Positions 55,976 through 58,221 of a stretch of DNA of 60,755 nucleotides are shown piece after piece. The stretch lies in assembly GCA_900314575.1 (NCBI GenBank), contig OMVS01000004.1:1-60755 (forward strand). The letters run 5' to 3'. A program made the translations under genes and the position numbers. The notes beneath the pieces were generated by a model. It ran no database searches and was not told the origin of the DNA. It saw only the letters and a program-made list of their open reading frames with translations. How positions within the stretch are numbered: the first letter of the stretch is position 1; each line of letters starts with the position of its first letter. The DNA is from an uncultured Olsenella sp. Its GTDB lineage: Bacteria; Actinomycetota; Coriobacteriia; Coriobacteriales; Atopobiaceae.

Positions 55976-56488
55976 CTACATGCGTACGCGCTGGTAGGTG
56001 ACGTAGGAGAAGGGCACGCCCCCGGCGGTCACCCCTCCGGGCGCCTCCTCGGCGACGACCCACGACGGGTCCGCGTCGAGGTCGGGGAAGAAGGCGTCGG
56101 CGGGGAGCACGACGTCGTTCTTCGTGACGTAGGCGAGCTCGCAGGCGGGGAGGAGCTCGCGATAGACGCTCTCGCCCCCGATGAGCCAGGCCTTCTCGAC
56201 CTTCTCGCCCTTCTCACCTGCCCCTTCCGAGACGGCGCGCAGGGCCTCGTCGACGTCGTGGACCACCTCGACGCCGGTGGCCCGGAAGCCCCCGTCGCGG
56301 GTGAGGACGACGTTGCGGCGCCCCTTGAGCGCCCCGCCGGGGAAGCTCTCGAAGGTCTTGCGGCCCATCAGCACGGTGCCGCCCATCGTGAGCTCGACGA
56401 AGCGGTGCATGTCGGCCTTGTTCCTCACGAGGAGCCTGCCCTCGGAGCCGATGCCCCAGTCGCCCGTCACAGAGACGATCGCGTTCAT
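55976..56488 (-). CDS. folA: Dihydrofolate reductase
   Basis: FolA reduces dihydrofolate, the product of ThyA, to tetrahydrofolate with NADPH. The 170-residue protein has the N-terminal MNAIVSVTGDWGIG, the VLMGRKTFESFPGGALKGRRNVVLT block (seen as LMGRKTFESFPGG) and AWLIGGESVYRELLP near residue 110. The conserved Asp/Glu of the active site is represented in the NKADMHRFVELT segment. It starts at ATG 56486-56488. It lies eight bases after thyA on the minus strand, the usual thyA-folA pairing. Confidence 0.93.
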   Translation of the reverse strand: MNAIVSVTGDWGIGSEGRLLVRNKADMHRFVELTMGGTVLMGRKTFESFPGGALKGRRNVVLTRDGGFRATGVEVVHDVDEALRAVSEGAGEKGEKVEKAWLIGGESVYRELLPACELAYVTKNDVVLPADAFFPDLDADPSWVVAEEAPGGVTAGGVPFSYVTYQRVRM

Positions 56489-56496
56489 CTGGCCTC

Positions 56497-57299
56497 CTAG
56501 ATAGCGATGGGGATGTTCTTGACCTGCGGGCCGTGCTGGTAGTCCTCGACGACGAGGTCGTCGGTGGTGAAGTCGTAGAAGTCCGTGACCTCGGGGTTGA
56601 GCGAGACCTTGGGGGCCGGGTACTGCGGGCGCTCGATGAGCTCGCGCACGACGTCGACGTGGCGGTCGTAGATGTGGGCGTCCGCGATCATGTGGACGAG
56701 CTCGCCGGCGACCATGCCCTCGACCTGCGCGACCATCATGAGCAGGAGCGCGTACTGGCAGACGTTCCAGTTGTTGGCCGCGAGGACGTCCTGGCTGCGC
56801 TGGACGAGCAGCAGGTTGAGCGTCGGCCTCTCGTCGCCCGGCGCGCGCGTCACGTTGTAGATCGCGTTGAAGGCGCACGGGTAGAGGTGCATCTCCGAGA
56901 GGTCGTGGAAGTTGTACAGGTTCGTCATGATGCGCCTGCTGTAGGGCTCGTGCTCGAGCTGCCACAGGACGCGGTCCATCTGGTCGAAGTCGCCCTCGGG
57001 GTAGTGGCTCCTCTGGGCCACCTGGTAGCCGTAGGCCTTGCCGATCGAGCCCGTCTCGTCGGCCCACTCGTCCCAGATGTGGCTGTGGAGGTCGTGGATG
57101 TTGTTGGACTTGCGCTGGTAGATCCAGAGGCCGGGAACTCCTTCCTGAGGTCGTAGCGATTGCACACGCCGAAGCGCTTGATGGTATAGGCGCTCGTGCC
57201 GTCCTCCCAGTGCGGGCGGACCTTCTGGCCCTCGGTCGTGGTTCCGTTCTTGATGATATCGTCGCACATGGCGACGAAGATTTCGTCTGCCTTGCTCAT
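56497..57299 (-). pseudogene. thyA: Thymidylate synthase with internal deletion and frameshift
   Basis: Reading from ATG 57297-57299 (GGAG upstream), 57 codons give a normal ThyA N-terminus (MSKADEIF...RYDLRKEFPA). At 57129-57131 the frame is lost. The remainder (LWIYQRKSNNIHDLHSH to the stop at 56497, 210 codons) is intact in another frame, with the catalytic Cys in LYPCAFNAIY and RSQDVLAANNWNV. About 15-16 residues expected between KEFPA and LWIYQ are missing, including the HELL-type Glu (Glu58 of E. coli). The two frames overlap by one base, so the deletion is 3n+1 bases. It is a genuine pseudogene or an assembly/sequencing error. Confidence 0.85.
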
Positions 57300-57340
57300 G
57301 TGGCTCCAATCTGTCGTCGTCCGCTGCCCTCGGGCAGCCC

Positions 57341-57781
57341 CTAGGCGGAGAGGCCGCCTGTCGCGCCCGGCAGCCCCGCGCCGAGCCCGTCTGCGGGCGC
57401 GTCGCCCAGCCCGTAGCCGTCGCCGTCGCCCAGCCCATAGCCGTCGCCGTCGCCCAGCCCGTAGCCCGGGACGCCATCGTAGCCGTCGCCGTCGCCGTCG
57501 TCCAGCCCGTAGCCCGGGACGCCATCGTAGCCGTCGCCGGGCACGAGGAGCCGCTCCTCGGGGCAGCCGTCGGAGTACAGCAGGTATTCCTCTGCCAGCC
57601 GGCCGGCGCAGGAGGCGACGGACGAGGAGAGCAGGAGCAGGGCGAGAAGGACGGTGGCCACGAGGACGTAGGCGCCGTTCCCCGAGGCTGTGTTGTCGGG
57701 CGAGGTCGTCGCGCTCGCGGTCTCTATGGTCTGCCCGGGCTGGACCTCGTCCGCCCGCGCGCGCTTGTCGTCGGTCTCCAA
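57341..57781 (-). CDS. Small membrane protein with Gly/Tyr/Asp-rich repeat tail
   Basis: The 146-residue protein has a polar N-terminus, one membrane helix (about 37-58, AYVLVATVLLALLLLSSSV) and, from about residue 82, a repetitive tail. The tail is built of GDGYGLGD and DGYDGVPGYGLGDG units encoded by 24- and about 42-base DNA repeats. The start is TTG 57779-57781 after GGGAGGGG. It lies between the Nudix gene (17 bases) and thyA (41 bases) in the minus-strand operon. I do not recognise a family. The tail probably faces outside or forms a flexible region. Confidence 0.7.
   Translation of the reverse strand: METDDKRARADEVQPGQTIETASATTSPDNTASGNGAYVLVATVLLALLLLSSSVASCAGRLAEEYLLYSDGCPEERLLVPGDGYDGVPGYGLDDGDGDGYDGVPGYGLGDGDGYGLGDGDGYGLGDAPADGLGAGLPGATGGLSA
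57361..57540. repeat. Tandem repeats encoding the Gly/Tyr-rich tail
   Basis: Units around CAGCCCGTAGCCGTCGCC of 24 bases occur about three times, followed by two longer units containing CAGCCCGTAGCCCGGGACGC. It is an in-frame, potentially length-variable coding minisatellite. Confidence 0.75.
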
Positions 57782-57798
57782 GAGCCCCTCCCGGTCCC

Positions 57799-58221
57799 CT
57801 ACAGGTGCTCCGCCGAGAACAGCGCGTCCCAGAGGCCGCCGAGCGACATCGCGACCTTGCGGTCAGCCGGCAGCCAGTCAACGTCCAGGAGCTCGTCGCG
57901 GCCGAGCCAGCGCGCGTCGGAGTGCTCGAGGAGGGTCGGCTCCTCGCCGGGCGCGAGGGTGCAGACGTAGCAGTCGAGCGTGAGGTGGAAGTCCCCGTAG
58001 TCCTGCTCCACCGTGTCGAGGAACCACACGGTGGAGAGGCGCGCCGCGAGCTCCTCGGAGATCTCGCGCCTGAGGGCCTGCTCGCCCGTCTCGCCCTTCT
58101 CCACCTTGCCGCCGGGGAACTCCCAGCCTCCCTGCATGTCGCCGTGCCCGCGCTGGCAGCAGAACACGGAGCCGTCGCGGCTGATGACGGCGCAGACGGC
58201 GTGGACCTTACGCTCTGCCAT
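57799..58221 (-). CDS. Nudix hydrolase (MutT-like, 8-oxo-dGTPase candidate)
   Basis: The 140-residue protein carries a complete Nudix box near residues 37-59: GGK...GE...REISEEL with all conserved Gly, Glu and Arg residues. It begins ERKVHAVCAVISRDG, and WEFPGGKVE just before the box is the pattern of MutT/CTP pyrophosphohydrolase enzymes that clean damaged nucleotides from the pool. It lies two bases after the thioesterase gene, so it is co-transcribed. Its neighbours thyA-folA also serve nucleotide supply. Confidence 0.9.
   Translation of the reverse strand: MAERKVHAVCAVISRDGSVFCCQRGHGDMQGGWEFPGGKVEKGETGEQALRREISEELAARLSTVWFLDTVEQDYGDFHLTLDCYVCTLAPGEEPTLLEHSDARWLGRDELLDVDWLPADRKVAMSLGGLWDALFSAEHL

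Follow-up and report, generated by a model that had tools for sequence, protein, structure and literature searches.

The thyA Locus

The window analysed here is an entire contig (C73) of 60,755 bases from an Olsenella-like gut bacterium of the Atopobiaceae; the nearest relatives of its genome are Olsenella and other Atopobiaceae. The thymidylate synthase gene thyA lies on the minus strand at 57299-56497, and its reading frame is broken internally (Table 1). The start of the gene is correct (MSKADEIF), and past the junction the conserved ThyA sequence resumes in another frame as LWIYQRKSNNIHD and runs on to its natural end, KNIPIAI. A preliminary description had read the gene as two conserved halves in different frames which meet at this junction, and both the frames and an alignment with 17 relatives bear this out.

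Table 1. Features of the thyA region in the window
Feature	Coordinates	Strand	Remarks
folA (dihydrofolate reductase)	55976..56488	(-)	directly downstream of thyA; open; matches dihydrofolate reductase models
thyA, 3' two thirds	56497..57129	(-)	210 aa, LWIYQRKSNN...KNIPIAI; frame differs from the 5' half
thyA frame as written from the start codon	56925..57299	(-)	predicted truncated product of 124 aa with an out-of-frame tail
Junction	57129..57131	(-)	46 bases of all aligned relatives absent; placement ambiguous by 1-2 bases
thyA, 5' half	57129..57299	(-)	57 aa, MSKADEIF...RYDLRKEFPA; NF002495 profile positions 1-55
Small membrane protein	57341..57781	(-)	146 aa, GYGLGDGDG tail; upstream of thyA
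MutT/Nudix hydrolase	57799..58221	(-)	next gene upstream of the membrane protein

The open reading frame holding the thyA start spans 56925..57881 and is closed by an out-of-phase stop at 56925. No full-length open frame over the thymidylate synthase model PF00303 is found, a single frame covering profile positions 60-262 only, and this second half alone scores 227.7 bits in the family search, far above chance. The conserved PC motif with the catalytic Cys is retained in it as LYPCAFN. The junction is internal to the contig and reads clean, and there is no N at the junction or elsewhere in the window.

The downstream folA is intact, as had been described. On the other side the small membrane protein gene sits between the Nudix gene and thyA, and the same order is kept in a sister genome (G001). 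The protein has a conserved SATTSPDN motif in addition to its GYGLGDGDG repeat tail, and its homologues come in a short form (105-153 aa) and a long form (~270 aa) that carries one more domain at its C terminus. Two sister genomes encode a protein some 125 aa longer, and the shorter one in the window was considered as a possible second lesion; this was rejected, the 105-153 aa forms being common in other relatives. The partial thyA of G001 was likewise rejected as a lesion, since the gene stops there at a contig end.

The Segment Missing from thyA

Against the 17 aligned relatives the gene lacks exactly 46 bases in one gap; the region of 280 bases compared has no other insertion or deletion, and the segment is present in every one of these relatives. 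The absence of 15-16 residues and 46-49 bases that had been proposed is confirmed in the sequence, and the relatives, in which the segment is intact, narrow it to 46 bases, or 15 residues. In 20 of the 20 relatives listed 45 bases lie between the Ala codon and the Leu codon at the site; the window lacks these 45 bases and one more. In the closest relative (L007) the 15 lost residues read LTLRRTALKSAMDEV. Among them is a Glu, that of DEVLW; in alignment with thymidylate synthases of solved structure it falls in ELLW, and by our own count we take it to be Glu58 of E. coli ThyA. The catalytic Glu is therefore within the missing stretch, as the preliminary description had it.

No direct repeats longer than 6 bases flank the site in the relatives, so that a simple collapse of repeats is not visible. 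A search of the genome with the DNA of a relative, meant to recover a complete copy of the segment at another position, hit the known locus and otherwise nothing but short chance matches, and exact searches of a viral collection with the junction and with its left flank gave no match.

What remains of ThyA is well preserved. At 155 near-invariant columns defined on 41 relatives the window protein has 1 change, and intact relatives have 0-10. On this count the rest of the protein is free of decay, and any real loss must be very recent. The split form was found in no relative in a survey of the family.

Other Routes to dTMP

The genome comprises 2.13 Mb in 144 contigs, with an estimated completeness of 96.5% and a contamination of 0.5%. 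Rescue by a thyX, a second thyA or thymidine salvage had been suggested should the lesion be real, and none of these was found. In the 96.5% complete genome there is no second thyA by family search or by search with a relative's DNA, no thyX by family search (6 of 14 control genomes matched), and no match to thymidine kinase (TK, PF00265), deoxynucleoside kinase (dNK, PF01712), the concentrative nucleoside transporter (CNT, PF07662) or pyrimidine-nucleoside phosphorylase (TIGR02644). Control genomes gave matches in each of the family searches. The ~3.5% of the genome which is absent from the assembly could hold a salvage gene. Among the routes searched there is no known route to dTMP, and the only dTMP gene is the one broken thyA. 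Lacking the last four functions, a thyA-null cell would be unable to use external thymidine by these routes.

Within the family thyA is present in 136 of 140 genomes (100 of the 101 of good quality), nearly always at full length. ThyX-like matches are confined to a single family genome (1 of 101, or 1 of 81 in a narrower count), and TK was found in 3 of 21 relatives (2 of 15 of good quality). Bacteria of the family appear to depend on ThyA, which makes a fixed thyA null implausible.

A Second Gap in the Assembly

The quality of the assembly was assessed by comparing 683 kb of the 2.1 Mb with the complete genome G058, a comparison which covered 254 non-overlapping conserved genes. After antisense open reading frames and natural differences had been discarded two disruptions were left among the 254, the 46 bp in thyA and 79 bp in the gene for phosphate acetyltransferase. 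The latter gene (pta; G000:C83:98989-99887, or L235 18989-19887) is single-copy and has a clean internal gap of 79 bases with a frameshift; the segment is present in two sister genomes and in G058. The gene is located ~1.6 kb before the high-coordinate end of its contig. The gaps in thyA and pta are alike in being clean and frame-shifting, and both fall in highly conserved genes that are otherwise intact. One-base frameshifts or nonsense mutations were not seen among the 254 compared genes. Ordinary decay would mix lesion types, and the pattern of two gaps is better fitted by local deletions in the assembly.

Several other candidates were set aside. A number of apparent disruptions were antisense open reading frames, ribosomal protein L16 has a natural end, and the apparent disruption at pgsA-cinA is a fusion in G058: the two genes are adjacent and separate in the present genome (G000:C67; L131 3000-4300) and form one fused frame in the complete one. 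In-frame losses were also scanned; they look like natural differences in loop length and cannot be counted as lesions. Many of the 144 contigs are 2-4 kb long, which indicates a short-read draft, probably metagenome-derived.

Explanations for the Broken Gene

The preliminary description left the choice between a real lesion and an assembly error. The latter is favoured by the second clean deletion, in pta, and the striking adaptation which it had also envisaged finds no support. We consider it probable that the draft assembly is locally at fault in the 46-base gap and that the living population carries an intact thyA. The assembler, or a gap-closing step, would have joined two ends over a stretch that was skipped. 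An assembly error comes out ahead because none of the other routes to dTMP that were searched for was found in the genome and because the same kind of clean gap is found in another conserved gene. Against this it can be argued that the two deletions might instead be two recent real mutations.

A real and recent thyA null in the sampled population is unlikely. Such cells would need external thymidine or thymine and might be trimethoprim-resistant, like thymidine-dependent small-colony variants. The clean junction, free of N, inside a contig of this length would agree with it, as would the intact folA; co-trimoxazole resistance is known to arise by loss of thyA, and the residue lost here is the one altered in the E. 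coli clinical auxotroph Glu58Gln (PMC9269972). What speaks against it is that imported thymidine would be unusable by the routes searched, and that pta has a gap of the same kind. We give an equally low probability to a mixed population, in which most cells are intact and a minority deletion allele entered the consensus. This would account at once for a clean junction without repeats, for the lack of decay and for the lack of salvage genes, but assemblers usually keep the majority allele, and the gap in pta is not explained by a mixture alone. Two further possibilities were considered. That this is a gut bacterium which naturally does without thymidylate synthase and known thymidine salvage, obtaining dTMP by an unrecognised route of uptake or synthesis, is very improbable. 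Conserved sequence is kept in both halves of ThyA, as would be expected if frameshifting joined them or if the fragments associated into a functional enzyme; any joined product would nevertheless be 15 residues short, the Glu58 equivalent among them, and the form is seen in no relative, so that we regard this as hardly conceivable.

With a fault of the assembly as the preferred reading, the practical lesson is that clean gaps of tens of bases occur within genes of this assembly, and claims of gene loss or auxotrophy made from it need care. Were the gap real, the mutation itself would be an ordinary thyA null of a well-known class giving thymidine dependence; the bacterium, having no recognised way to make dTMP, would be remarkable.

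Comparison with Known Systems

The gene resembles the ThyA family of thymidylate synthases (PF00303; NCBIfam NF002495, PRK01827.1-1) in that its two halves both fit the profile, in the correct order, with folA directly behind. It differs from the family in the 15 absent residues and the shifted frame, and as written it is no working member.

In bacteria where ThyX replaces ThyA a thyX gene is present; none was found in this 96.5% complete genome. The thymidine-dependent thyA mutants known as small-colony variants of S. aureus and E. coli are a closer parallel. An E. coli clinical thymidine auxotroph is caused by Glu58Gln in ThyA, which shows the importance of the residue (PMC9269972), and here too thyA function would be lost with the same catalytic residue hit. 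The S. aureus and E. coli mutants use external thymine or thymidine, whereas no salvage route for either was found among those searched in this 96.5% complete genome, and for the gene described here a fault of the draft assembly is the likelier origin.
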